Positions 35,013 through 49,446 of a stretch of 64,000 nucleotides of DNA are shown here, one piece after another. Each line of letters opens with the position of its first letter. The stretch's first letter is position 1. The position numbers and the translations under genes were made by a program. Under the pieces are notes generated by a model. The model saw nothing but the letters and a program-made list of their open reading frames with translations, made no database searches and was not told where the DNA came from. The stretch spans positions 2,542,001 through 2,606,000 of the forward strand of contig NZ_CP012160.1 of NCBI RefSeq assembly GCF_001187845.1, given 5' to 3'. Origin of the DNA: Octadecabacter temperatus. GTDB taxonomy: Bacteria; Pseudomonadota; Alphaproteobacteria; Rhodobacterales; Rhodobacteraceae.

Positions 35013-35045
35013 AACTCAGTCCGGAAAAGTTTATTCCGGCGAGTT
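35013..35045. terminator. Bidirectional hairpin between the SorC gene and the ABC importer operon
   Basis: CCGGAA-AAGTTTA-TTCCGG, flanked by AACTC/GAGTT that extend the stem with a small bulge. It contains the stop of the ATPase gene and lies 29 bases after the SorC stop. No strong T-run. Confidence 0.55.
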
Positions 35046-36143
35046 GGGGATAACGTGGGCCCGGCTTTCTTGGAACCGGATGCCGACTTTAGAGCCTTCG
35101 GTTGGCAGTTCTATGCCCCCGCTCGAATCCAATGTTGCCAATGCAGTTTGTCCACCGACTTCGATCAAGCATTCCGTGTGCGTTCCCAAAAATTCAGAGC
35201 CGCGAACGATGCCGTGAACGGAACTTTCGCTTTCCGGCACAATCTCCAAATGCTCTTGCCGGATCACAAGCAAAACATTGTCACTCTGTTCGCTGCCGGG
35301 AGCCCATGAGCCGATATTGAATGTGCCGCCGCTGAACTCAACGACGAGCCCATCTGACTTTCGCTCAAGCACGCGTGCTGGGAAGAAGTTCGCGCTGCCA
35401 ACGAAGTCTGCGACAAATCTATTGTCCGGCCGTTGGTAGATATCTTGCGGCGTTCCGACTTGCATAACCTGCCCAGAGGACATGACTGCAATGCGATCCG
35501 ACAAGCTCATCGCTTCACTTTGATCGTGGGTAACATAGATTACCGTGGGTCGCAGACGCTGGTGCACCCGTCTGATCTCAGCGCGGACCTGAACGCGCAG
35601 GCGCGCATCCAAGTTTGACAGCGGCTCATCGAACAAAAGAACTCTTGGATCGGACACCAATGCCCGCGCCAAAGCGACACGTTGCTGCTGGCCGCCGCTG
35701 AGCTGAGCTGGGGAGCGATCCGCAAGATGGCCTAGACCAACGAGAGAGAGCATCTCCTCGACACTCGCTTTTGTTTCAGCCTTAGGTCTTTTCCTAAGCG
35801 TTTGACTGTAGGCGACATTGTCGAAGACCGTTTTATGCGGGAAAAGGGCATAGCTTTGAAAGACAAGGCCGATGTTGCGCTTGTATGGCGGAAGTTCATT
35901 TACACGCTCCCCCCCAATCGAAATCTCACCGCGCGTTGGCTGCTCTAGGCCTGCGACCATCCTCAAGATGGTGGTCTTGCCGCATCCAGATGGGCCAAGT
36001 AGCGAAACGAATTCGCCCGGTGCTACATCCAAGGATATCTTGTTTACAGCCGTTACCATTCCACCATCTGGCGCTTGGAATTCCTTTTCCAAGTCTACGA
36101 GTCGAAGGTCGTTACCCTGTGTTGTTGAGGTTTCCATGCTCAT
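35031..36143 (-). CDS. ABC importer ATP-binding protein (AfuC/FbpC/PotA type)
   Basis: Cytoplasmic ATPase of 370 residues. Walker A is GPSGCGKTTILRMVAGLE, Q-loop VFQSYALFPHKTVFDN, signature LSGGQQQRVALARAL, Walker B VLLFDEPLSNLDARL, and switch VTHDQSEA. A TOBE domain occupies about 275-365. The gene starts five bases after the permease. Sequence alone cannot separate Fe(III), polyamine, thiamine, phosphonate and sugar-phosphate members of this subfamily. The SorC regulator and HAD phosphatase beside it favour a phosphorylated sugar. No Fur-type box was noticed. Confidence 0.92.
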   Translation of the reverse strand: MSMETSTTQGNDLRLVDLEKEFQAPDGGMVTAVNKISLDVAPGEFVSLLGPSGCGKTTILRMVAGLEQPTRGEISIGGERVNELPPYKRNIGLVFQSYALFPHKTVFDNVAYSQTLRKRPKAETKASVEEMLSLVGLGHLADRSPAQLSGGQQQRVALARALVSDPRVLLFDEPLSNLDARLRVQVRAEIRRVHQRLRPTVIYVTHDQSEAMSLSDRIAVMSSGQVMQVGTPQDIYQRPDNRFVADFVGSANFFPARVLERKSDGLVVEFSGGTFNIGSWAPGSEQSDNVLLVIRQEHLEIVPESESSVHGIVRGSEFLGTHTECLIEVGGQTALATLDSSGGIELPTEGSKVGIRFQESRAHVIPNSPE

Positions 36144-36148
36144 AGCCC

Positions 36149-37807
36149 CTATGATGTTTTTTGCCGCTCAATGAAGCGGAACAAGATTATGTTTATTGCA
36201 ACGACGATCACGACGAGGACCACTGCGAATGCTGACGCCACGCTAATTCTCCCCGTTTCGATCTCTGACAGCATTGCCGCCGTGACCAGTGTCCAATTTG
36301 CGGACACGACAAAAATCACCGCGCTGAGAGACGTTATGTTTCGAGTGAACATATAAATGATACTTGCGACGAAGCTGGTCCGGATCAAAGGTGCAGTGAT
36401 GCGGGCAAAGGTTTGGAACCTGTTCGCACCAAGGGTCAGCGATGCCTCATCAATTGCTACATCAATTTGTCCAATGGCGGCGACAGACATTCGCAAACCG
36501 AAAGGCATCGTGCGCACAATAAACAAAAGTATGATGATAAGCGCCGTCCCCGAAATGATCAGCGGGGGCTTGTTGAAGGCAATGGCAAAGGCAATACCAA
36601 TAACAACGCCGGGCACAGCCATTGGTATCATGCTTAGAAAGTCGATCATGCCCCGCCCTTTAACCGGCACACGTTGCACCATGTACCCGATCGCAAGACT
36701 AAGCACACCGCCAAAGACCGCAGCGATTGAAGCAAGGAAGAAGGTATCTTGCAGCGCCCTTAGGCCCAAGTTTCCCGCCCCGAAAACAGCTCGGAAATGG
36801 TCTAAGGTTGGCGTGTAATTAACACCCCAAAGCCGTGTCGATGCCCCGGCTAGGATGGTCAAATAAACGGCCGCAATGATGAGTGCGATGAAGGCGCAGA
36901 AAGCCCACGCCGACCAGACGATACCGCGTTCACCGATAGAGGTTGATGAGCCTGAAGGACGACCGGATACCATGGCGTAGGTTGTGCGTTGTTCCAGTCT
37001 TTTCTGCCAAATAAAGAGCACGACCGCAGGGAAAAGAACCGTAACCGACAGAGCGGCCCCACGAGCGAAGTCAAATTGGCCGACAATTGCGAGATAAATC
37101 TGTGATGACACGACCGTATAGTTACCGCCGATAAGCAGAGCGTTTCCAAGATCTGCCATGGAATAGATAAACAGCAGAAGGAAGGCGCTCGCGATTCCGG
37201 TGACCATAAGCGGCAATGTTACACTGAAGAGCGTCTTGAAGCGATTGGCCCCTAACGTCGATGCAGCCTCCTCTAGCGCAGGATTAAGGCCAAGCAGTAC
37301 GCCACGTAAAAGCAAATAAGCGAATGGGAAAAACCCAAAGATCTGGGCCACAGCCATGCCTTTTAGCCCGTAGATTGCACCTGTGTTCAAACCCAATATT
37401 TCATGGGTTATAAGACCTTGGCGCCCGAAGAGCATAATCACCGCAAGCCCAAATGCAAAAGGCGGTGAGATTGTCGGAACCAGTGCGACGATGTGGAAAA
37501 ATTTCTTTCCGGGTATATTAACTTTGGTGACGGCCAGAGCAAATATCAATGCAATAACTGTCCCAAAGGTAGCAACGATCGCCGCTAGGCGAAACGAATT
37601 TGCGATAACACGGCGATAGTATGCCGTTTCGAAGAGGGAGACGAACTCGCTCAGAGAGAAGCTACCGTTCACAAAGAACGCAGCAATCAAAACCTGAACC
37701 AAGGGATAGGCTATTAAAACGAGGAGCCACACCCATGCAAGTCCGAAGACTGCATAGGTGCTTTTCTCTTCGCGAGTGCCGCCTTGTTTTTGTTTACTTT
37801 TTTTCAT
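36149..37807 (-). CDS. ABC importer permease with two fused membrane domains (AfuB/FbpB type)
   Basis: 552-residue inner-membrane protein with about twelve helices and two EAA loops: EEAASTLGANRFKTLFSVTLP near residue 185 and DEASLTLGANRFQTFARITAP near 460. The duplication marks the Fe(III)/sugar-phosphate/phosphonate group, in which one chain supplies both transmembrane halves. A very basic N-terminus (KKSKQKQGGTREEK) precedes helix 1. It lies 30 bases after the binding-protein gene on the minus strand. Confidence 0.92.
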   Translation of the reverse strand: MKKSKQKQGGTREEKSTYAVFGLAWVWLLVLIAYPLVQVLIAAFFVNGSFSLSEFVSLFETAYYRRVIANSFRLAAIVATFGTVIALIFALAVTKVNIPGKKFFHIVALVPTISPPFAFGLAVIMLFGRQGLITHEILGLNTGAIYGLKGMAVAQIFGFFPFAYLLLRGVLLGLNPALEEAASTLGANRFKTLFSVTLPLMVTGIASAFLLLFIYSMADLGNALLIGGNYTVVSSQIYLAIVGQFDFARGAALSVTVLFPAVVLFIWQKRLEQRTTYAMVSGRPSGSSTSIGERGIVWSAWAFCAFIALIIAAVYLTILAGASTRLWGVNYTPTLDHFRAVFGAGNLGLRALQDTFFLASIAAVFGGVLSLAIGYMVQRVPVKGRGMIDFLSMIPMAVPGVVIGIAFAIAFNKPPLIISGTALIIILLFIVRTMPFGLRMSVAAIGQIDVAIDEASLTLGANRFQTFARITAPLIRTSFVASIIYMFTRNITSLSAVIFVVSANWTLVTAAMLSEIETGRISVASAFAVVLVVIVVAINIILFRFIERQKTS

Positions 37808-37837
37808 GCGACCAACGCTTAAAGTCAGAGTTATAGT

Positions 37838-38863
37838 TTATTCAGCGATCAGGATTTCGTTCTGAAATCTTTCAATCAAACGAGTCTTGTTTGCACCCGC
37901 CCAATCGAAATCATAGTCGATAAGCACCATATCTTCTAAGGCAGAAGCCTCGGCGCGTGGCGACAATTCCGGATTGGTGAAGCTAAGCAGGTGGAAGTGT
38001 TCCTGCATGACCGACTGACCTTCAGCACTTAAGATATAGTCGATGAACATTTGTGCTTCGAGTTGGTCAGGCCCGTCTTTCAGCATCGCCGCTGGTTCAA
38101 GAGCAAAACCTGTACCCTCTGACGGTGTTGACAGTTCCAGATCGAAACCTTGTTGTTGGATCAGGTACGCGTCCTGAAGCATCAAGATGCCAACTAGAAT
38201 TTCGCCTGATCCAGCCATACGGCCCGGTGCGCTACCGCTCTTTGTATACTGAGCGATATTTTCGCTGGCTTGATCCAGGTACTCAAACCCTTCTTCTTCG
38301 CCCATCAGCTGCGCGATTGTGCTGATGTATGCATACGCAGTTCCCGAGGTGGCCGGATTCGCAACAGCGACCAAGCCTTCCAATTCTGGTGCAAGAAGAT
38401 CTTCCCATGATGTGGGAACCTCAATGCCTCTTTCAGCAAGCAGTCCACGGTTGCTGGCGAAGCCGAGATTTGAGGTGTAAAGGCCCGTCCAGTAACCGTC
38501 CGGATCCTTAAACTGGTCGGCGATGTTCTCTGCGGATGGTGAAATGTAAGGCTCTAACAGTCCTTCTTCCTGTGCCACCCGGTAGGAATCGCCGGGGCCG
38601 CCGAACCAAACACTGGCTTGCGGGCGCGCTTGCTCGGCGCGGATTCGGTTTAACGTCTCTCCAGTCGATGCCCGCACATACACGGTCTCGATACCGGTTT
38701 TAGCCTCAAAGGCTTGAGCGACATCACGCACAACATCTTCAAGTGTGCTGCCGTAAACAGTCAGTTGGCCGGTTGCTTCTTGTGCGGTCACTGCGGTGCC
38801 ACTCACAGTAATGGCAAGGCACGCCATAGTGGATAGAACGTTGCGACGTAACATATTTCTCAT
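37838..38863 (-). CDS. ABC importer periplasmic binding protein (AfuA/FbpA type)
   Basis: 341 residues with signal peptide MRNMLRRNVLSTMACLAITVSGTAVTAQ; GGAGGAGAGTCCC precedes the ATG at 38863. Family-1 fold: LTVYGSTLEDVVRDVAQAFE, ETVYVRASTGETLNRI, PQASVWFGGPGDSYRVAQEEG and PSEGTGFALEPAAML. The Tyr-Tyr pair that binds Fe(III) in FbpA is not obvious near the C-terminus, which weakens an iron role. AfuA of Actinobacillus, in the same family, binds hexose phosphates (established). A 2-aminoethylphosphonate or glycerol-phosphate ligand is also possible. It heads the three-gene operon. Confidence 0.9.
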   Translation of the reverse strand: MRNMLRRNVLSTMACLAITVSGTAVTAQEATGQLTVYGSTLEDVVRDVAQAFEAKTGIETVYVRASTGETLNRIRAEQARPQASVWFGGPGDSYRVAQEEGLLEPYISPSAENIADQFKDPDGYWTGLYTSNLGFASNRGLLAERGIEVPTSWEDLLAPELEGLVAVANPATSGTAYAYISTIAQLMGEEEGFEYLDQASENIAQYTKSGSAPGRMAGSGEILVGILMLQDAYLIQQQGFDLELSTPSEGTGFALEPAAMLKDGPDQLEAQMFIDYILSAEGQSVMQEHFHLLSFTNPELSPRAEASALEDMVLIDYDFDWAGANKTRLIERFQNEILIAE

Positions 38864-38957
38864 GGGACTCTCCTCCGTTGATGACATTCAAGAATTCCGT
38901 TGATTGCTTTCAAGAAAAAAATCCTCCCGATTTTCCACTTGACGAATTTCTCAAAAG

Positions 38958-38990
38958 TGCACTTATATGCACATACTGCACATTTATGCG
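38958..38990. promoter_or_regulatory. Four phased TGCA half-sites in the divergent promoter region
   Basis: TGCAC occurs at 38958, 38968 and 38977, and TGCG at 38987, a spacing of 10, 9 and 10 bases. The array lies 95 bases upstream of the importer start and 190 bases upstream of the HAD gene. One protein face would see all four, as expected for a tetrameric SorC regulator. Confidence 0.5.
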
Positions 38991-39046
38991 TAAGTTTTTT
39001 GGGCAGTCAAGAAATAAATGTTGATGTGGGACGCAAAGGCGCCCCG

Positions 39047-39172
39047 ATGAACACACACCGAGGAGTTGGTCCGCGTCATGCGTTGCAGTCTGAAAGCAAG
39101 GATAAAAATAGGATTGTTATGACAGATGCACTCAATGCCTATGCGCGCTCCAACAAACACATAATTAGCTGA
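39047..39172 (+). CDS. Possible small ORF, 41 aa, before the HAD gene
   Basis: ATG at 39047 with AAAGG nine bases upstream, ending eight bases before the HAD start. The sequence (MNTHRGVGPRHALQSESKDK...) shows no known motif. An inner ATG at 39119 with AGGA ahead would give only 17 residues. It could be a leader ORF or chance. Confidence 0.2.
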   Translation: MNTHRGVGPRHALQSESKDKNRIVMTDALNAYARSNKHIIS

Positions 39173-39179
39173 GGACACC

Positions 39180-39845
39180 ATGACCGCACACGCAATTCTC
39201 TTTGATATGGACGGCCTCCTTCTGGATACAGAAAAGGTTTGCTTTGATAATTTTGTCGAGACTCGACGTCACTTTTCCCTTTCAGATAGTCCTGAAGTTT
39301 TTCTGAGGTGTGTTGGACTTCGGCGTCCGGAGTGTGATCGGGTCATCCTGGAAAGCTTGCCCGACCAAGTCGAATTCCAAGACTTCAACGAAGTGTGGCG
39401 TGAAAAAATTTCTGCGACGCTTCAGCGCGAGATCCCCCTAAAAGCGGGAGCCCTTCAGCTTTTTCAAGTCCTTTCTTCAAAAGGGTATTTGATGGGCGTC
39501 GCAACTTCTACCGAGACGGAAGTGGCACGATCTCATCTTGAAAAAACCGGCCTGCTTCCATTTCTGGCAGGGGTTGTCGGCGGAGACCTCGTTCAACAAG
39601 GGAAGCCGAATCCCGAAGTGTATCATAAAATTGCGGAACATTTGGGAGTGAGCGCGGCTGATTGCATTGCTTTCGAAGACAGTGAAACAGGCACGAGAGC
39701 AGCGGTCGCTTCAGGTGCCAAAACTATCCAGATACCTGATCTGATACCACCTTCGGCGGACATGTTAGAATTCGGTCATGTTATCGCGCCTAGCTTGTTA
39801 GAGGGCGCTTTGAAAGTAGACCTAATTCAAACATCGGACATTTGA
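39180..39845 (+). CDS. HAD-superfamily phosphatase/phosphomutase (beta-PGM-like)
   Basis: 221-residue cytoplasmic enzyme with all HAD motifs: motif I DMDGLLLDTE at residues 9-18, motif II ATSTETE near 109, motif III Lys in QGKPNPEVYHKIAEHL near 150, and motif IV FEDSETGTRAA near 170. The four-helix cap between I and II fits sugar-phosphate phosphatases and beta-phosphoglucomutase. It is divergent from the AfuA-type binding-protein gene. A role in removing phosphate from, or isomerising, the imported sugar phosphate is inferred. Confidence 0.88.
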   Translation: MTAHAILFDMDGLLLDTEKVCFDNFVETRRHFSLSDSPEVFLRCVGLRRPECDRVILESLPDQVEFQDFNEVWREKISATLQREIPLKAGALQLFQVLSSKGYLMGVATSTETEVARSHLEKTGLLPFLAGVVGGDLVQQGKPNPEVYHKIAEHLGVSAADCIAFEDSETGTRAAVASGAKTIQIPDLIPPSADMLEFGHVIAPSLLEGALKVDLIQTSDI

Positions 39846-40024: not shown

Positions 40025-40398
40025 CGCGCCCTGTAGGCTACGGTGTGGTATCCAACGACCGTGACACAGCAGTTTATGGCCGCCCCGTTTCGCTTGAACG
40101 GCCAATTACTAACTTGATCGAAAACGCTCTGAAATACGGTCGACGCGCGACTGTATCACTGGAGGCAAACGCGCAATCCGCGACGATCATCATCGAAGAT
40201 GAGGGCTCTGAAAGTTCTGCCGCTGAAATTGAAAAGCTCTTGGCCCCATTTCAGCGTGGAGAGAACACGGCAACGATAGATGGCCACGGGCTTGGCCTTA
40301 CAATTGTAGCGACAATTGCAAAATTGCATGGAGGCCGGCTGACATTTGAAGACTCTGCAACGGGTGTGACTGCGCGATTGGCTATTCAGAGATCATGA
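40015..40398 (+). pseudogene. Truncated sensor histidine kinase (ATPase domain only)
   Basis: The frame opens after a TAA at 40012 and encodes a kinase HATPase domain: N-box TNLIENALKYG, G1-like EDEGSES (DxGxG is damaged), and G2 DGHGLGLTIVATIAKLHGG. The membrane, HAMP and HisKA parts are missing, and upstream sequence is unrelated. A free 117-residue ATPase from the GTG at 40045 cannot act as a kinase alone. I read it as the stump of a deleted two-component gene next to another remnant. Confidence 0.7.
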
Positions 40399-40749: not shown

Positions 40750-42585
40750 TCAAGCGACGCGAATTGGCCTATCCGAAACGATATCGCGCCGAATAACGTG
40801 TTCTAAGTCTTCACCCTTTTCGTCCACCAATATGCTCAGCATGGACTCGAGGGTGAAGTAGGCGCGAAGCACGCGGAATATTAGGTATTCGGGCAGCGCG
40901 AGAATACCTTTGGGCACCCCATTCAAGAGCGACGCCAACACAGCCATGATCGCCGGTGCGCCGGTTGTGACGGCGACAATGGATTGCCAAATGATCGGAC
41001 TGTCAGGGTTAAGTCGAAGACCCCATTCAAGCGCACCATAGAGGATCAGTGGAACCAACATTGCGCGGCGCGCGGAATTGATCAGCATATATGGCAGGAT
41101 GATCTTACCGCGGAGCGTCTTGTTTGGCCCGTAAATCAAATCTCGGCATCTCGAAGAGATATGATAAATCGAGCGGAACCATCGCATACGTTGCTCACGC
41201 ATATGGCTGTACGACGATGGAACCTCAGAAATATAGCGGATCCTCGGATCAACGACCGAGTGGAATCCAAGTTCGCCAATGCGCAAAGAAATGTCAGTGT
41301 CTTCGCCATTCATACCCTCAACAAATCCGCCAAGATAACGTGGATGATGGGTCCGATAGACAACGAACATTCCAGGGATGCCCACAACACCATTCACCGC
41401 ACCCATAGCAACCGAGTAGAAACCATGTTTCACCAAAACCTCGAGAAGGCGCGCACGATCAAATAGCGCCCCACCAGGCGGCACGGGAACCCCACCGACA
41501 ACCCCAACTTGCGGGTTGGCAAAGTAAGGCATCGCACGCGAAAAATTATCTTTGCCAACCAAGGTATCGGCATCTACCCGAACTAGAAATTCGGTCTCAC
41601 AGGCGTCTAAGCCCGCGTTCAACGCGTTCGACTTTCCGGGCTTGGGGACATTGATCACCCTTCCCTTTGCGGCCTTGCATGCGTCGAGAGTCTCGCGTGC
41701 GATGTCTTCGGTATCATCCGTTGAATTGTTGTTCATGATTAGGATGTGGACGTCACCACCGTAATGCAGGGCTGCGGCGTCCATTGCATTAATGGTGTCT
41801 TTGATGATGTAGGACTCATTGTGCGCCGGTACGATCACGGAAACAGGTGGCCTAAAGTCCGGCGTTTTGGCGGTCCAAACGTCGTAGACCGCAAGCAGAT
41901 AAAGTTGTCCGAACAACGTTGGCAGAAAGAGAAAAACACCCGGCCCGATCCCGCCAAGCAATGTCCACTGCCGCAAAACCTCAACGAGGTTAATATCCAT
42001 TCCGCCCACCCAGATCGAGACGAACATTGCGATAAGCGTCGTAATCCCTATGCGCCAGAAAGCGCGACCCTGACTGACTGGAATATGCTCAATCCGAATG
42101 CGGGCTGGCATCAGCCCACGCTCAAGCAACTTGAACGAATAGATCGCGAAACCAAACAGCCCCGAAAGGATTGCGCTGAAATGTAACGACAAGGATTGGC
42201 CAATAACACTATGCGCGGCTGCATTGGCCAAATCAAAAACAGCACACCCAGCCAAAAACGTGAGAATCATATCGAGCCCGAACATAACGCGGCCGCGCGT
42301 CCCGCCGTTGCTAAACGCGGCGAAGGAAACAAAGAACGATATTAGGAATATCCGGATTGCGATCGCATGGCGCCCCTCATGAAGCGAAAACACATAGTCA
42401 TGGTTAGGGAAAATCCGTGCCGCGCCCTCAAGGTTGACGAGCCAAAGCTGCAGCGTCGCAAGCGCCACAAAGACCAACAACATTTTCGGAGCCTGCCAAT
42501 CGTTCACGGCACCCGCAAATCGTTTCGGTGCGCTATCTACAGAGATGAAGTTGATCTGTTCGCGCTTGTCATCTGTATCGCTCAT
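40750..42585 (-). CDS. Processive family-2 glycosyltransferase, cellulose-synthase-like
   Basis: Inner-membrane synthase of 611 residues that should polymerise a beta-linked sugar and extrude it. Four to six helices lie before residue 240. The GT-A domain spans about 245-480: VSVIVPAHNES, DxD as D338-A-D340, GEDTD at 427-431, and the processivity motif Q465-R-M-R-W469. Further helices follow to about 575. It lacks the PilZ c-di-GMP domain found in BcsA and is shorter than BcsA. Its ATG overlaps the stop of the BcsB-like gene by four bases, so the two are made together. The sugar donor is not defined by these motifs; the operon suggests UDP-sulfoquinovose or a mix. Confidence 0.88.
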   Translation of the reverse strand: MSDTDDKREQINFISVDSAPKRFAGAVNDWQAPKMLLVFVALATLQLWLVNLEGAARIFPNHDYVFSLHEGRHAIAIRIFLISFFVSFAAFSNGGTRGRVMFGLDMILTFLAGCAVFDLANAAAHSVIGQSLSLHFSAILSGLFGFAIYSFKLLERGLMPARIRIEHIPVSQGRAFWRIGITTLIAMFVSIWVGGMDINLVEVLRQWTLLGGIGPGVFLFLPTLFGQLYLLAVYDVWTAKTPDFRPPVSVIVPAHNESYIIKDTINAMDAAALHYGGDVHILIMNNNSTDDTEDIARETLDACKAAKGRVINVPKPGKSNALNAGLDACETEFLVRVDADTLVGKDNFSRAMPYFANPQVGVVGGVPVPPGGALFDRARLLEVLVKHGFYSVAMGAVNGVVGIPGMFVVYRTHHPRYLGGFVEGMNGEDTDISLRIGELGFHSVVDPRIRYISEVPSSYSHMREQRMRWFRSIYHISSRCRDLIYGPNKTLRGKIILPYMLINSARRAMLVPLILYGALEWGLRLNPDSPIIWQSIVAVTTGAPAIMAVLASLLNGVPKGILALPEYLIFRVLRAYFTLESMLSILVDEKGEDLEHVIRRDIVSDRPIRVA

Positions 42586-44138
42586 CCCGCTAAATCCATT
42601 AGGTTGACGCCATTCGGAACCACTAAGACCCCCAGACTATGACGCGGTAATTCGGAGCCTTCTTGAATGAATTCTGCCCCCAGTTTTAGCGTTGCTGGAT
42701 CGCGTGTAACCAACCAAACAGGTCCGACGTTTTGAAGGCTGGAGATAACATTTTCAGAGGACGTCAAAATAATGTTGGCTGACTCACTGTTCGGTCCAAC
42801 AGCAACAGCATCTGGCAGCAAAGCCCCCAACATTTCACTCATCGCTTGGGCGTCAGATGCCGAGAAATCCGTTACCATCCCGACTTTCAACCGACCAAGA
42901 TCCGCAAGTGTCGCGCGCACATCGCCGATAGGATCGATAAACGTCGTATCGCCATGGTGCAGTCTGGATGTCGGCAACAATTCAGCAAAAAGCTCAGGTC
43001 CGATATCGCACTCACCGGTTGAGAGGTGAGGAGACGCCACACTAACCTCGAGGACGTTTACGGTGGTTTGCATCTCTTCAGGTAGGGAAACCGAAGCCTC
43101 GAATTGAAGGTGATCAGGCGCAACGATTTCTTGATGCACAAGACGGTTGTTAAGCACGACCGTCACGGTCCAGCCTTGAGCATTCATTTGCCGCCCAAGT
43201 GCGAGATGAAGGTCAAAGGTTTCTGGAATTTTCATGGCCGGATCGTCCCGCACATCGTATCGTTCACGCCATGTCGTGCGGCGGTAAAAGTGGCGAATGC
43301 CTGCGTTTGTTCCACTTTGTGCGAGTGCCTTGGGCCATTCAGCCTCTCCAAGGTCACTGCCCAGCGCCGCAAAAAACGGGAGTGCATTGCGCATCTCGTC
43401 GGTTGTCAGAGCATCGTTGGAATGCCCATCAACCATCACCGATTGAATGCCATACCGTTCGAACTGAGCAGCAAGAATTAGACGTCTAATGCGTTCTTCG
43501 CGTTGCAACCAATCTGGCCATGCAACGCGTGTTAAATTACCCCACGCATGAACCCTGTCACGCGGTGTTTCTAATGTGCGGTCTAAGGTGAGAACCAAAA
43601 GGCTGGTCGTCTCGATCTCAACGACGGCTTCCAAACCTTCGTTCCTAGAACAGGAAGAACCGGGGCCCTCGCCTTGCAATGAGAAAGAGACGACCAACTG
43701 GTCCCTTACAAAATCCGTCGGTGAAAGCGGAATTTGTAAGGTACGCTCGACCACGCCTGGACGCAGCAACAATTCGCCTCTTTTGGCGCCATCAATGGAG
43801 ATCCGAAGAACCCCTTCAACGCCGTCAAGAACCTGAAGTGTTGCATCAACTTGGAGGTGTCCAGATGTAGGTCGCGCATCCAATGGAAGATTGAATTGAA
43901 CGCTTTGATAGGCCGGAAGCCCAGACAAAATGACCGGATGGTCTGGATTGGACCGATAGACCAATCCGATGTCCTCGCCACTCGTTTCAACGGCCCTACG
44001 ATCTTCAAATACGAGGTTTTGATCCTGCGTAAGCGCGCCAAAATAGTGTTGCCCTCTATCCAAAAATCCAGTCGTCGATAGCAGGAGAGCTACGCCTGCA
44101 AGGAGAAATCCCATAAGCCCAATGCCTATCATTCGCAT
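42582..44138 (-). CDS. BcsB-like periplasmic partner of the glycan synthase
   Basis: 518 residues from the ATG at 44138; the frame extends to 44252 inside the synthase gene upstream. An N-terminal hydrophobic helix (MRMIGIGLMGFLLAGVALLL) is a signal or anchor. The periplasmic part is beta-rich, with two jelly-roll-like repeats at about 60-200 (YQSVQFNLPLDARPTSGHLQ) and 290-420, as in BcsB carbohydrate-binding domains, and a CDIGPE/GSSCSRNEG cysteine pair. It is shorter than E. coli BcsB and lacks the C-terminal membrane helix that docks BcsB onto BcsA. That is unusual and suggests a different way of holding the synthase. Confidence 0.75.
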   Translation of the reverse strand: MRMIGIGLMGFLLAGVALLLSTTGFLDRGQHYFGALTQDQNLVFEDRRAVETSGEDIGLVYRSNPDHPVILSGLPAYQSVQFNLPLDARPTSGHLQVDATLQVLDGVEGVLRISIDGAKRGELLLRPGVVERTLQIPLSPTDFVRDQLVVSFSLQGEGPGSSCSRNEGLEAVVEIETTSLLVLTLDRTLETPRDRVHAWGNLTRVAWPDWLQREERIRRLILAAQFERYGIQSVMVDGHSNDALTTDEMRNALPFFAALGSDLGEAEWPKALAQSGTNAGIRHFYRRTTWRERYDVRDDPAMKIPETFDLHLALGRQMNAQGWTVTVVLNNRLVHQEIVAPDHLQFEASVSLPEEMQTTVNVLEVSVASPHLSTGECDIGPELFAELLPTSRLHHGDTTFIDPIGDVRATLADLGRLKVGMVTDFSASDAQAMSEMLGALLPDAVAVGPNSESANIILTSSENVISSLQNVGPVWLVTRDPATLKLGAEFIQEGSELPRHSLGVLVVPNGVNLMDLAG

Positions 44139-44223
44139 AATTTTCACCGATATGTTTTGAAGCTGAATCGACAAGATCGCAGCGCCCCACCTCCAAGCGG
44201 AATGCTGCGACCGAGCCAGTCGG

Positions 44224-45444
44224 TTAAGCTGCTCGTGAGTTGTCCGGATCAATCACACCGGGGCGTTGATTGTCAGTCCATGTGGACACGCACGGGATCA
44301 TTTTCCGGATGCAACGTCCCGCATACTTTGCTGCGATTTGCTGCGTTTCATCCATAAGACCTTCAGCCAATGTAACGGGCTTTAGACCTAATGAGATGAA
44401 CGTTTTGTTCGAGACACGCAGGTCGTTTTCTGCGGCTTCGTTGCGTGGATTGTCGACATTCGCAATCTTCGCACCAGACGTTTCAGCCACAAGATTGGCA
44501 AGCGCCCGCACCGTGTGCGTTTCCGTCATCTGGTTCAAAATTGCGACTTTTCCATCCCGTGCGGGTGGGTTTGCAACAGCCAATGCAAGACATTTTACCG
44601 TATCCTGAATGTGAATGAATGCGCGGGTCTGTCCGCCGGTGCCGTGTACCGTCAATGGGTGGCCAACGACAGCTTGCATCAAGAAGCGGTTAAGCACCGT
44701 TCCGTAGTCACCGTCATAATCAAAGCGATTGATGAGCCGCTCATCCAAACGCGTTTCATTCGTCTGCGTGCCCCAAACGATTCCTTGGTGCAGGTCAGTA
44801 ATCCGCATGTGGTCGTTCTTTGCGTAGAATTGGAACAGCAACTGATCCATGGACTTGGTCATGTGGTACACGCTGCCTGGGTTGGTTGGGTACAGAATGT
44901 GACGCTGGAAAATCTTCTTGTTGTCACCTGGGATGTAGACCGGAAGATACCCCTCAGGAATCTCGATGCCATCGTCGTCGTATCCGTAGACCCCCATTGT
45001 GCCGAGGTGGACGAAGTGGGCGTCCAAGCCAAGCTCAACAGATGCAGCAAGAAGATTGTGGGTACCTGAAATGTTGTTGTCGACGGTGTAGCGTTTCTCG
45101 CAGACACCCTTCATCGAATACGGTGCGGCACGTTGTTCACCAAAATGGATGATCGTATCGGGCTTAACCGTCGCCATAAGGTCACGAAGACGGTCAAATT
45201 CACGGGCGACATCAATCTTCTCGAACTTGATCGTAAGGCCAGTCTTCTCTTTCCAAGCGAGAAGGCGATCTTCCATTGAGGAAAGTGGGGTTAGGCTGTC
45301 GGCACCCATCTTCGCATCGATTGCGCGACGTGACATGTTGTCAACGATCGTGATGTTGTGCCCTTGCCCTGACAAGTGCAGAGCTGTAGGCCATCCACAA
45401 AATCCGTCGCCGCCAACTACAATGATATTCTTTGAGTTTGTCAT
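44224..45444 (-). CDS. UDP-sulfoquinovose synthase-like NAD-dependent epimerase (SqdB/SQD1 family)
   Basis: Extended SDR of 406 residues matching the SQD1/SqdB pattern through its length. NAD motif VGGDGFCGW at 10-18; DSLTPLSSMEDRL near 50; HFGEQRAAPYSM near 100; catalytic T149 in HLGTMGVYG and Y193-xxx-K197 in YHMTKSMD; DLHQGIVWGTQTNET near 220; GHPLTVHGTGGQTRAFIHIQDT near 255. SQD1 makes UDP-6-sulfoquinovose from UDP-glucose and sulfite (established). It leads an operon with a BcsB-like protein and a processive synthase, not with sulfolipid genes (sqdX/sqdD). AAAGGACATAGAAA precedes the ATG. A related UDP-sugar epimerase is the main alternative. Confidence 0.82.
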   Translation of the reverse strand: MTNSKNIIVVGGDGFCGWPTALHLSGQGHNITIVDNMSRRAIDAKMGADSLTPLSSMEDRLLAWKEKTGLTIKFEKIDVAREFDRLRDLMATVKPDTIIHFGEQRAAPYSMKGVCEKRYTVDNNISGTHNLLAASVELGLDAHFVHLGTMGVYGYDDDGIEIPEGYLPVYIPGDNKKIFQRHILYPTNPGSVYHMTKSMDQLLFQFYAKNDHMRITDLHQGIVWGTQTNETRLDERLINRFDYDGDYGTVLNRFLMQAVVGHPLTVHGTGGQTRAFIHIQDTVKCLALAVANPPARDGKVAILNQMTETHTVRALANLVAETSGAKIANVDNPRNEAAENDLRVSNKTFISLGLKPVTLAEGLMDETQQIAAKYAGRCIRKMIPCVSTWTDNQRPGVIDPDNSRAA

Positions 45445-45606: not shown

Positions 45607-48135
45607 TTAAAGTGGCGCTGACATCCGCTTGTCGAAATCTGCTTCTGCTTTACGGGCAAGGTTTTCAACTGATTCTAACTGCGCGCTGAGGTCAGGAATC
45701 GACCCTAGGCGCGCGTCGTGCTCAATCTCTTGCAACATTATCTCCAGCTTTTCGAAACCAAAAAGAGACGCAGCGCCCTTCATTTTGTGCGCAACCTCTG
45801 CAAGCGTTAAGGGCTCAGCGTCGAACGCGCCATCTCGGGCTTGCGCGTCAAACTCTTTCAGCTCATCGAAAAACTGTTTCCCAACAGCGCTCGCTTTCTC
45901 GGCGCCAAGTGTATTGCGCATTTCACCCAATGCATCTGGGTGCGTCGAAGAGCCTAGCAACACATTATCGGTCGAAGATAACTCAGCGATGATAGTACGC
46001 AGAGCATCAAGGCGAATGGGTTTTGTATGGAAACGGTTCATCCCAGCTTGTTCCGCCTCTTCACGGTACTCTTCCCGGCCATGTGCCGTTAGCCCCACGA
46101 TCCGCGTCGCCGCGTTGGGGCCGTTATCATGACGAAGTCTACGCGTAGCTTCGATTCCATTCATGATCGGCATGCTGATATCCATTATAATGGCGTCGAA
46201 TTCTTCCAGTGCTGCTTTCTCAATGCAATCAGCACCATTGATAGCTTGGGTCACGTGGTGCCCCATCCCCTCAAGCATATCGCTAAGCACTTTGCGGTTA
46301 ATGCTGTTGTCTTCGACCACCAACACCTTGCAGGAACTTGTGAAAGACACGACAGGTTCTTGCTCGGCGGGGCCGCTATTCGGTACCTCTTCTCTCCGTT
46401 GCAAAGGAACCGTTAAGGTAAATGTTGAGCCAATTCCGACTTCACTATTCAAGCTGATATCACCGTCCATTCGACGCGCAATTTTGCGCGAAATTGCGAG
46501 CCCAAGGCCATCGCCGCGTGATTGCCGTCCTTCGCTAGGGGCAAGTGCTACAAAGTCGTCGAACACCTGCTCTTGGTGTTCCGGCGCAATTCCCGGTCCA
46601 GTGTCAGAAACCTTGAACTTTACAGACGAATGCTCTGGTCCGTGAATACCACCCACCTGAACGGTGATCTCTCCACTGCCTGAAAACTTAATCGCGTTGC
46701 CGATCAAGTTCGTCAATATCTGACGGATGCGATTACTGTCCCCATAGAAATCGATACAAATGAGATCGTCCAACTCAACGTTTAGGTCTAGATTCTTTTC
46801 ACGCGCCAACGGTTCTAAGACATCCACTAAACCGTTGACCATTTCCGGCAGGTCAAACTGTTGTGGCGCAAGTTTCAGATTACCCGTTTCAATCCGTGTA
46901 ATGTCCAGCGCCTCGTTTGTGTGTTCCAACAGTATCTCACTCGATGCGAGGGCGATGTCGGCATAACGCTCTTGGGCAGGTGATAGTTTGGTCGTCTTAA
47001 GTAAATCCAACACGCCCATGATGCCATTCAACGGTGTGCGCATTTCGTGGCTCATTAAGGTTAGGAACTGCGACTTGGCTTTGTCAGTCTTTTCCGCACG
47101 ATCTCGTGCGTCGACCAATTCTTGTTCGGCGATTTTCCTTTCGCTGATATCGCGAATGTAAGCGATAAATTTAGTGCCGTCCTCATCTTCGGTAGCTGTG
47201 ATATTTAGCTCGACAGGAAATTCTTCGCCGCTTTTGCGCAACGCCGACAGCTCGACCCGACCCGCATCCACCACCCGTGGTTTGCCCGTTTCAAGATAAC
47301 GCCGCATGCCATTGTGGTGGGCATCGCGCATATGGTGAGGGATGAAGGTTTCCTCCATCGTTTTGCCGATCATCTCACTTCGGCTCCAACCAAAAACTTT
47401 CTCAGCCGACAGGTTGAAATCAATGATTTCCCCTTCGCTATTCGCCGTAACAATCCCGTCAAGCGACGCTGTGACTGTAGAGCTAAGCAGCTTTGCCGAT
47501 GATTGCAGCGCCGCGTCATTCACGGCCGCTTGACGGAACATGCGGTCCAGCAACATCAAAAGCGCGCCCATCAATACAAGCAATACAATTGCGATGCTTC
47601 CTGTGCGTTTCAGCTGTTCGGCAAACAAGGCGCGGCGTTGTTGGGATTTCTCAGCTGAAAGGCTTAGGCCCAGCAACGCAATTTTACGAACATTTGGACG
47701 CAGATCCGTAACGCTAACCAGCAGCTCAGAAATATGATCGTTGGTGAGCGGGGTCGAACTGTCCGAAATGGATATCGCCTGTGCCTCAAATTGACCGAGT
47801 GCACGGATCAAAGAGCTCAGCTCGGCGTTTTCACCGATAAGCAGTGCGGCGCGACCCGAGTTTACAATGTCGAGGCGGCTTAGCGTAATATCTATCCGCA
47901 ACTTCAGCTCTTCATCTGAAAACCGTCCCGTTGCTAACTGATCGGAAAGATCTGCGTTTAGATTGGCGAATTCAGTATCTAGCTGAGAAATGCTCCATTG
48001 CGTGCTGTCACCCTGAGCGGTCGAAAGGTCTCGTAGTTGCGACAAAAGGTTGGTCACCATTAAGACCAACAACAAGGACAGCAGACCTAGGCCTGCCAGT
48101 ATCACGAGTCTGTACTTTTCTGAATTCAATTTCAC
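45607..48135 (-). CDS. Hybrid sensor histidine kinase with PAS, receiver and Hpt domains
   Basis: 842-residue membrane sensor. Helices at about 9-30 and 180-198 enclose a 150-residue helical periplasmic sensor. Then PAS (about 212-335, with VFGWSRSEMIGKT), HisKA with His363 in LMSHEMRTPLNG, HATPase with DTGPGIA at 511 and GDGLGLAI at 541, a receiver domain with Asp652 in IIMDISMPIMNG, and a C-terminal Hpt domain with His783 in VAHKMKGAASLFG. All phosphorelay residues are intact, so the output is probably the divergent LuxR-type regulator (48829). It follows a small periplasmic protein gene by 43 bases. The polysaccharide operon lies 160 bases downstream on the same strand and may be partly co-transcribed. 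Confidence 0.93.
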   Translation of the reverse strand: MKLNSEKYRLVILAGLGLLSLLLVLMVTNLLSQLRDLSTAQGDSTQWSISQLDTEFANLNADLSDQLATGRFSDEELKLRIDITLSRLDIVNSGRAALLIGENAELSSLIRALGQFEAQAISISDSSTPLTNDHISELLVSVTDLRPNVRKIALLGLSLSAEKSQQRRALFAEQLKRTGSIAIVLLVLMGALLMLLDRMFRQAAVNDAALQSSAKLLSSTVTASLDGIVTANSEGEIIDFNLSAEKVFGWSRSEMIGKTMEETFIPHHMRDAHHNGMRRYLETGKPRVVDAGRVELSALRKSGEEFPVELNITATEDEDGTKFIAYIRDISERKIAEQELVDARDRAEKTDKAKSQFLTLMSHEMRTPLNGIMGVLDLLKTTKLSPAQERYADIALASSEILLEHTNEALDITRIETGNLKLAPQQFDLPEMVNGLVDVLEPLAREKNLDLNVELDDLICIDFYGDSNRIRQILTNLIGNAIKFSGSGEITVQVGGIHGPEHSSVKFKVSDTGPGIAPEHQEQVFDDFVALAPSEGRQSRGDGLGLAISRKIARRMDGDISLNSEVGIGSTFTLTVPLQRREEVPNSGPAEQEPVVSFTSSCKVLVVEDNSINRKVLSDMLEGMGHHVTQAINGADCIEKAALEEFDAIIMDISMPIMNGIEATRRLRHDNGPNAATRIVGLTAHGREEYREEAEQAGMNRFHTKPIRLDALRTIIAELSSTDNVLLGSSTHPDALGEMRNTLGAEKASAVGKQFFDELKEFDAQARDGAFDAEPLTLAEVAHKMKGAASLFGFEKLEIMLQEIEHDARLGSIPDLSAQLESVENLARKAEADFDKRMSAPL

Positions 48136-48178: not shown

Positions 48179-48673
48179 TCAATCTATGACGTTTAATCGG
48201 TTCAGTTGCCAAATGCTGCGCGCAAAGGTGACTTCGGTGCTGTACTTTGGATCGCTGTCATAGGGAAAAACCACCCAGAACGGTCCTTTGTCGCGCACGG
48301 ACATGATGCTTCCGTCCATTCTCGTGGCGATGATGGGCGCGCTATCTTCTAAGTCAGAGATCGGCATGGTCACTGAATAATCGTTAAGTGCGACCATCTC
48401 GATTGTTGTGCCGCTTGCATCAATGTTTTCCAGCAACGCCCTTAGCGAAACACCTGAGAACTGGGTTTCGCCGTCAGTCCAAATTGTTGTTGTTGTGAAC
48501 TCGACTTGCTCAAACGCGTCCAGCTCTTCGAGGCTAAACTCGATAATGTCCGAAGACGTCTCACTTGGCGTAACCTGAAGCGCCAGTACATCTTGAGAAG
48601 CCGCCGATGACGCAAAAAACGTAGTGAAAACAAGAAAGAGGATCGATTTCCGTGAGTGGATTAGTGCGGCCAT
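48179..48673 (-). CDS. Small periplasmic protein resembling a molybdopterin-binding oxidoreductase fold
   Basis: 164 residues with a signal peptide (about 8-26, SILFLVFTTFFASSAASQD). The mature part has FSLEELDAFEQVEFTTTTIW, FSGVSLRALLENI, LNDYSVTMPISDLEDSAPII, and a C-terminal FWVVFPYDSDPKYSTE, as in short relatives of the sulfite-oxidase/SUOX molybdopterin-binding domain. The cofactor-ligating Cys is absent, so it is probably not a redox enzyme. It precedes the hybrid kinase gene in one operon and may bind a ligand for the kinase's periplasmic domain (inference). Confidence 0.75.
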   Translation of the reverse strand: MAALIHSRKSILFLVFTTFFASSAASQDVLALQVTPSETSSDIIEFSLEELDAFEQVEFTTTTIWTDGETQFSGVSLRALLENIDASGTTIEMVALNDYSVTMPISDLEDSAPIIATRMDGSIMSVRDKGPFWVVFPYDSDPKYSTEVTFARSIWQLNRLNVID

Positions 48674-48828: not shown

Positions 48829-49446
48829 ATGCCTAATATTCTTTTGGCCGACGATCATGATCTCGTTCGCGATACAATCGCGGCATATCTAAGAACCGTC
48901 GAAGAATTCAATGTTCTGACGGCACCAGACTTGGGCGGCGCTTTGGAGCTGATGGCGGGGATCGATTCTATCGACCTGTTGATACTGGATTACAATATGC
49001 CTGGAATGAACGGGCTAGATGGACTCGTTCAAGCACGCGAGGCCCACCCAGTCGCGAAGGTCGCCATCATGTCAGGTGTCGCCAATCGTGACGTGGCGAA
49101 CGCCGCCATGGACCGTGGGGCCCATGGTTTCATTCCAAAGTCACTGACAGCAGACACTTTGGTTAACGCCATTAAATTCATTCTGGCGGGCGAGCGTTAT
49201 ATCCCTTTCGACTTCGGATCGAACGACCCCAGAGAGAAGACAAGTGGTGAGTTTGCGAATTTGTCGGCGCGTGAAATGCAGACCTTGGAAAAATTGTGTC
49301 TTGGACTGTCGAACAAAGAAATTGCACGGGATCTCGACATCCAAGAAGTCACAGTAAAGCTGCATGTCAAAAACCTGTTGTCAAAACTTGGCGTTTCAAA
49401 CCGAACTCAAGCTGCTCTATTCGCGAAAGAGCGTCACCTGTTTTAG
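48829..49446 (+). CDS. LuxR/FixJ-type response regulator
   Basis: 205-residue DNA-binding regulator. The receiver domain (1-120) has the acidic pocket DDHD at 8-11, phospho-acceptor Asp54 in LILDYNMPGMNG, and the conserved Lys in GFIPKSL. The LuxR HTH covers about 140-200 (LSAREMQTLEKLCLGLSNKE, VTVKLHVKNLLSKLGVSNRT). AAAGGACGATAGACCT precedes the ATG. It is divergent from the 164-residue protein and hybrid kinase, making it the likely end of that relay. Target genes are unknown; the adjacent polysaccharide operon is the first candidate. Confidence 0.93.
   Translation: MPNILLADDHDLVRDTIAAYLRTVEEFNVLTAPDLGGALELMAGIDSIDLLILDYNMPGMNGLDGLVQAREAHPVAKVAIMSGVANRDVANAAMDRGAHGFIPKSLTADTLVNAIKFILAGERYIPFDFGSNDPREKTSGEFANLSAREMQTLEKLCLGLSNKEIARDLDIQEVTVKLHVKNLLSKLGVSNRTQAALFAKERHLF

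Follow-up and report, generated by a model that had tools for sequence, protein, structure and literature searches.

Sulfoquinovose is known mainly from the membrane lipids of plants and algae. Synthase-dependent export of exopolysaccharides is likewise known; what looks new is that it is combined with a sulfosugar synthase. The available part of a 2026 review (PMC12890257) describes phototrophs and certain archaea as makers of sulfoquinovose, with Bacillus coahuilensis also named as a sulfolipid maker, and heterotrophs, notably roseobacters, as degraders. For the sqdBDC genes of Rhodobacter sphaeroides, the excerpted text of PMC11346425 reports that deletion of sqdB abolishes the sulfolipid sulfoquinovosyl diacylglycerol (SQDG). 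Here we examine positions 2542001-2606000 of a 3.26-Mb Octadecabacter temperatus genome (the window, 64,000 nucleotides in all), in which a short-chain dehydrogenase/reductase (SDR) homologous to the UDP-sulfoquinovose synthases SqdB and SQD1 is followed on the minus strand by a gene for a BcsB-like protein and then by one for a membrane glycosyltransferase of family 2 (GT2). It is probable, in our judgement, that these genes form a synthase-dependent exopolysaccharide system that makes its own UDP-sulfoquinovose and whose product contains sulfoquinovose. A preliminary description of the locus knew of no characterised bacterial system of such make-up, and we too found neither a bacterial sulfoquinovose polymer nor a description of this gene set in open-licence PMC papers.

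The SDR among UDP-sulfoquinovose synthases

The SDR gene (44224..45444, minus strand; 406 amino acids) was assigned from its open reading frame (ORF), NCBIfam, PDB sequence matches and trees. Its product matched PF01370 at 83 bits, and its top PDB sequence matches were SQD1 entries (1qrr, 3.6e-95; 1i24, 5.7e-95; SQD1 range to 2.8e-94), with the next best at 6.8e-13. Identity was 43.4% over 376 columns to plant SQD1 and 59.2% over 402 columns to an SqdB-type protein of S. meliloti pSymB. Against NF041015, the NCBIfam model of UDP-sulfoquinovose synthase, the SDR scored 330 bits (E 1.7e-98), under the cut-off of 575 bits. However, since this cut-off was passed by none of the 248 genomes of our family survey (about one per genus), sqdBDC-type loci included, it does not define the SqdB type; this survey, like the order survey of 390 genomes described below, scored just candidates from a loose first pass, and a match-free genome is no proof of absence. 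Two controls, Synechococcus elongatus and Sulfolobus acidocaldarius, matched the model at E 1e-60, and just one of them passed the cut-off. Some relatives of the SDR are already named 'UDP-sulfoquinovose synthase' by JGI.

We identified 17 loci in which such an SDR is immediately followed by a glycosyltransferase of family 8 (GT8) and a further SDR (six titled loci, L061-L066, and 11 of 30 loci of the family survey). This is the gene order of the R. sphaeroides sqdBDC operon, as far as the excerpted PMC11346425 gives it. The window SDR shares with the SDRs of these loci, barring single substitutions, the motifs HF[AG]EQRAAPYSM, LGTMGVYG, SVYHMTK, DLHQGIVWG, NRFDYDGDYGT and GGQTRA. The preliminary description had proposed comparing the active site with SQD1; at the level of residue motifs it appears to equal that of the sqdBDC-type SqdB clade. 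T149, Y193 and K197, which the same description had singled out as kept, align with SQD1 T145, Y182 and K186. According to the available text of PMC8987622, [ST]MG together with Yx3K is the fingerprint of UDP-sulfoquinovose synthases, 4,6-dehydratases having acid/base pairs instead. The window SDR carries this fingerprint (T149-M150-G151 and Y193-K197), as do all 59 SDRs linked to a GT2.

Mutants of Agl3, the UDP-sulfoquinovose synthase of S. acidocaldarius, allow a finer comparison. In the part of PMC4388408 available, alanine at His95, Arg101, Met145, Tyr182 or Lys186 inactivates the enzyme, at Ser180 or Thr185 impairs it, at Thr144 has no effect, and at E147 leaves 12% activity. Via the SQD1 alignment, with the His/Arg register assumed, the seven residues reported there as important fall on H100, R105, M150, Y193, K197, S191 and T196 of the window SDR. 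Of the 59 GT2-linked SDRs, 52 retain H100 (the others having 5 Gln and 2 gaps) and 57 retain R105 (1 gap, 1 Thr), and T149, M150, G151, S191, Y193, T196 and K197 are present in all. The five SDRs with Gln for His100 are those of L040, L041, L043, L045 and L048, of which L041 is a second copy in Octadecabacter algicola, a species that also has an SDR 96% identical to that of the window. The position of SQD1 E148 and Agl3 E147 is V152 in the window. We considered whether this marks a lost sulfoquinovose active site and rejected the idea, as the same Val occurs in the protein of S. meliloti and in each of the 17 GT8-followed SDRs.

Phylogeny places the SDR with sulfolipid-operon enzymes. The main tree (66 rows) was rooted on the SQD1 type, and a second tree (71 rows) had S. 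meliloti and Marinovum added; rows were chosen from about 105, and both trees flag long branches. An earlier tree with a faulty outgroup (some non-SDR rows) was not used for rooting; L009, a near-copy of the window, and the fragments L071 and L072 were omitted from it. In the 66-row tree the window clade comprises 34 rows, all adjoining a GT2 (89/81), clade B comprises 11 rows, two of them GT2-linked (98/91, starred), and the sqdBDC clade comprises 12 rows (99/100, starred). These three clades form one group in both trees (98/84 with 66 rows and 98/88 with 71, both starred), with SQD1 outside, and their branching order differs between the trees. In the 71-row tree the S. meliloti and Marinovum SDRs fall into the sqdBDC clade (14 rows; 100/99, starred), and one Pseudonocardia row lands among the outgroup. 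On S. meliloti pSymB a glycosyl transferase gene comes after the SDR gene, and in Marinovum algicola the SDR of the same type is followed by 'Glycogenin-1' and 'UDP-glucose 4-epimerase'. The label of the sqdBDC clade is based on gene order and the excerpted PMC11346425, no named R. sphaeroides SqdB being among the 120 matches listed. A position outside the UDP-sulfoquinovose synthases, which the preliminary description had offered as grounds for abandoning its reading, is thus not what the trees give: the SDR sits with sulfolipid-operon SqdB, S. meliloti pSymB included.

The 'GT2-linked' label needs two changes in the 66-row tree, forced by starred branches: one for the window clade and one for the pair L112/L134 within clade B (100/97, starred). 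Clade-B rows are unlabelled in the 71-row tree, and its single label change is no argument against two. In L112 and L134 (genomes G073 and G038) the order is porin-like, BcsB-like and GT2 genes, then an SDR gene facing these, so that in two further genera a GT2 is paired with an SDR of another clade. We also noted a gene for phosphoadenosine phosphosulfate (PAPS) reductase, an enzyme whose product is sulfite, in the same stretch in five of 12 clade-B loci (L115, L116, L118, L120 and L122; adjacent in L116 and L118); of all other loci searched, only L051 also had one. In the clade-B loci L115, L120 and L123 the SDR has identified glycosyltransferase genes nearby, and the SqdD reference had no match in the clade-B loci (stretches of 11-19 kb). 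Possibly, the clade-B SqdB-type genes with PAPS reductase serve sulfoquinovose in heteropolysaccharides with a local sulfite supply.

A membrane GT2 and a BcsB-like partner

The open frames of all three genes were confirmed on the minus strand, in the order SDR, BcsB-like, GT2. The preliminary description had named a BcsB-like protein and a GT2 with DxD and QxxRW behind the SDR, and both assignments stood up, through PF03170, predicted folds and motifs. The GT2 (40750..42585; 611 amino acids), assigned from its ORF, Pfam, alignment and predicted fold, starts with a 4-base overlap of the BcsB-like stop. Its residues D338/D340, G427-E428-D429, Q465, R468 and W469 are invariant in 39 of 39 aligned GT2 sequences, that of the window included. 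The predicted model matches BcsA and hyaluronan synthases, aligned over 312-380 residues, and its best single structural match is PcManGT, an archaeal mannosyltransferase. Six hydrophobic segments lie in the N-terminal part, and a Pfam scan gave no match to a PilZ domain. The score against the CelA model TIGR03030 was 21.1 bits against a cut-off of 699.1, so the protein is not BcsA proper. By its DxD, ED and QxxRW motifs we class it as a putative processive-type synthase of the BcsA/hyaluronan synthase class.

The BcsB-like gene (42582..44147; 521 amino acids from a GTG at 44147) was assigned from Pfam, predicted fold and hydropathy. Its ORF stays open to a TTG at 44252; the GTG matches the ORF start in seven close relatives (L009-L012, L014, L017 and L018). 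The product matches PF03170 (BcsB) at 26.1 bits, above the cut-off of 21; a match at E 0.001 is given by 37 of 48 family members. PDB sequence searches with the protein and its profile found no BcsB, and the 22 best PDB matches of its predicted model are all BcsB. A membrane anchor at the C-terminus is a feature of BcsB. Hydropathy gave a single segment, at residues 6-24, and none at the C-terminus; we therefore term the protein BcsB-like rather than BcsB.

Linkage of the gene set and its neighbourhood

Searching from the SDR side, we obtained 69 loci, with a GT2 match in 59 and a BcsB match in 51 (tblastn). The SDRs of the ten loci without GT2 (L060-L066, L069, L071 and L073) are 55-62% identical to that of the window, and a Devosia locus (L059) with an SDR 62% identical has the GT2. 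Searching from the GT2 side gave a sharper picture. In the 248 family genomes 11 places passed E 1e-40 (weakest match 9e-161), and the coordinates put every one of them next to an SQD1-like SDR. In the order survey 28 places in 26 genomes passed E 1e-30 (four of the 26 genomes being in both surveys), and 26 of these places adjoin an intact SDR. At the other two (genomes G432 and G421; loci L036/L169 and L072/L170) the GT2 stands beside a damaged SDR, one lacking 23 residues across the HFGEQR stretch, the other matching only from residue 130 on. The SQD1-like SDR itself occupies 68 places (at least 301 bits; next score 53) in 61 of the 248 family genomes. Thus the SDR has other uses, and the GT2 was not seen without the SDR in the surveyed genomes. 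A chance neighbourhood of the two is rejected by this linkage in both surveys. The preliminary description had suggested a survey of synteny, and the outcome is a linkage that is near absolute from the GT2 side and reaches another phylum. Among the Octadecabacter genomes listed, the GT2 is present in three and had no match in at least two.

The other phylum is represented by a plasmid of Rhodococcus qingshengii (Actinomycetota; L143:4307-15822), which carries SDR, BcsB-like and GT2 genes in the same order. Its SDR is 59.8% identical to that of the window and branches, with weak support (86/56, 71-row tree), basal to the window clade; its GT2 is 36.7% identical over 96%; and its BcsB-like protein reached an hhalign probability of 99.3 (E 2e-20), whereas its Pfam BcsB score of 19 bits stays below the cut-off, 21. 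An alkyl sulfatase gene lies directly downstream of this set and a SulP permease gene 3 kb upstream. In the plasmid collection the GT2 had just one other match (29% over 47%), carried by a Deinococcus plasmid; the 18 plasmids found to have an SQD1-like SDR at E 1e-60 do not include it. There, a long glycosyltransferase gene with the weak GT2 match adjoins a diguanylate cyclase gene (L144:5709-9158).

Porin-like genes adjoin the gene set in several relatives. One subgroup (L046, L047, L049, L050, L052, L076 and L140) has a porin-like gene (cluster c12), the SDR and the GT2, with no BcsB-like gene found. At L035:10841-11587 the GT2 match covers just 250 residues of a 274-residue ORF, which may reflect a broken or truncated gene. 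No outer-membrane channel gene for the set was identified in the window genome; a barrel-like protein (c10, named by eye, with no Pfam family) was not found there in a search without positive control, which does not establish its absence.

Upstream of the SDR, and in the same direction, lies a gene for a hybrid histidine kinase (45607..48135, minus strand; PAS-HisKA-HATPase-receiver-Hpt). Upstream of that is a gene for a small, probably exported protein of 164 amino acids (48179..48673, minus strand), whose Oxidored_molyb match is borderline (24.5 bits against a cut-off of 24) and which contains no cysteine. A LuxR-type response regulator gene (48829..49446, plus strand) is divergent from the kinase and SDR genes. 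The corresponding clusters are represented in 32, 27 and 29 of the 69 related loci, and the Oxidored_molyb-like cluster usually adjoins the hybrid kinase; its cysteine-free member here may act as a sensor partner and not as an enzyme. A promoter and terminator scan gave a result below shuffle expectation. On the far side of the GT2, an ORF of 117 amino acids with a HATPase_c domain only (40045-40398, plus strand) resembles the tail of a histidine kinase gene, and 35031-39845 holds an apparent ABC importer (binding protein, fused permease and ATPase, assigned by eye) beside a HAD-type hydrolase.

Proposed function and comparison with known systems

These results suggest a model in which the SDR would oxidise UDP-glucose at C4, eliminate water across C5-C6, add sulfite at C6 and reduce C4 again to yield UDP-sulfoquinovose. 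From this donor, either by itself or in alternation with UDP-glucose, the membrane GT2 would then extend a chain and move it across the inner membrane; the BcsB-like protein would guide this chain within the periplasm, and its release would be through an outer-membrane channel. A phosphorelay of the hybrid kinase and the LuxR regulator probably controls expression. Because no other glycosyltransferase or sugar-nucleotide enzyme occurs among the seven neighbouring window proteins scanned with Pfam, a simple polymer is favoured, and it is in this polymer that we infer a sulfonated sugar. We suggest, tentatively and with slightly more doubt than conviction, that roseobacters make a secreted sulfoquinovose homopolymer or glucose co-polymer, cellulose- or hyaluronan-like, with carbon-bound sulfonate, and that the three-gene module has spread between phyla.

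Other explanations deserve weighing. The SDR might make UDP-sulfoquinovose for a GT2 that is no polymerase and transfers a single sulfoquinovose residue onto a carrier lipid or a glycan of the cell surface, the BcsB-like protein then presenting or exporting this glycoconjugate. The mannosyltransferase PcManGT as best structural match and the subgroup without a BcsB-like gene fit such a scheme; it is nonetheless unlikely, given the invariant QxxRW, the long alignments to BcsA and hyaluronan synthase, the BcsB match in most SDR-side loci and the porin-like neighbours in some. We think it quite unlikely, too, that drift has given the SDR a different reaction (for example to a UDP-glucose-5,6-ene, or as a 4-epimerase or dehydratase), with a sulfur-free polymer as the outcome. 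Its motifs equal those of S. meliloti and other sqdBDC-type SqdB, TMG stands where dehydratases have their acid/base pair (PMC8987622, as excerpted), and PAPS reductase genes accompany several clade-B loci, although the modest identity to SQD1, the NF041015 score below cut-off and V152 at the place of SQD1 E148 could all be read in favour of drift.

Finally, an SDR of SqdB type might simply belong to an SQDG pathway and merely adjoin an unrelated polysaccharide operon. The preliminary description had held sqdD to be absent, and this was borne out: SqdD had no match in the window genome, while all three SqdD-holding control genomes matched (SqdX-type transferases were not searched for). The SqdBDC route is therefore unlikely in this genome, and an sqdBDC sulfolipid operon was rejected. 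Such operons are present in some heterotrophic roseobacters, and in genome G025 SqdD and the GT2 of the polymer set each have an SDR copy of their own next to them. Together with the linkage seen from the GT2 side, this leaves the SQDG explanation barely credible.

If the exopolysaccharide reading is correct, the locus would represent a new kind of bacterial exopolysaccharide, with sulfonate bound to carbon of the sugar instead of sulfate esters, and would give UDP-sulfoquinovose a role beyond lipids and archaeal N-glycans. It would also mean that heterotrophic roseobacters synthesise and export sulfoquinovose, beside the sqdBDC-type operons of some, and would provide a possible extra source of this sugar in the marine sulfur cycle.

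The proposed system resembles several described ones in part. With the BcsA-BcsB cellulose synthase it shares a membrane GT2 with DxD, ED and QxxRW adjoining a partner of BcsB fold. In contrast to that system, it has no PilZ match and has its own sugar-nucleotide synthase; the BcsB-like protein is shorter, with its hydrophobic segment N-terminal and none C-terminal, and neither BcsZ nor BcsC is among the seven scanned neighbourhood proteins. Hyaluronan synthase, which makes an anionic polymer, is likewise a membrane GT2 of processive type, as the predicted fold suggests for the window protein. However, the window GT2 has six N-terminal hydrophobic segments, a BcsB-like partner and a predicted sulfonate in place of the carboxylate. 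Agl3 is, like the predicted SDR, a UDP-sulfoquinovose synthase that supplies a glycoconjugate and not a lipid (PMC4388408, as excerpted), although it is archaeal and serves N-glycans. The counterparts of the SDR itself are SqdB and SQD1 (R. sphaeroides sqdBDC; 1i24), of the same family and with the same active-site motifs; the SDR is 59% identical to the sqdBDC-type protein of S. meliloti and groups with that clade, and it differs in forming its own clade and in adjoining BcsB-like and GT2 genes instead of sqdD and sqdC.

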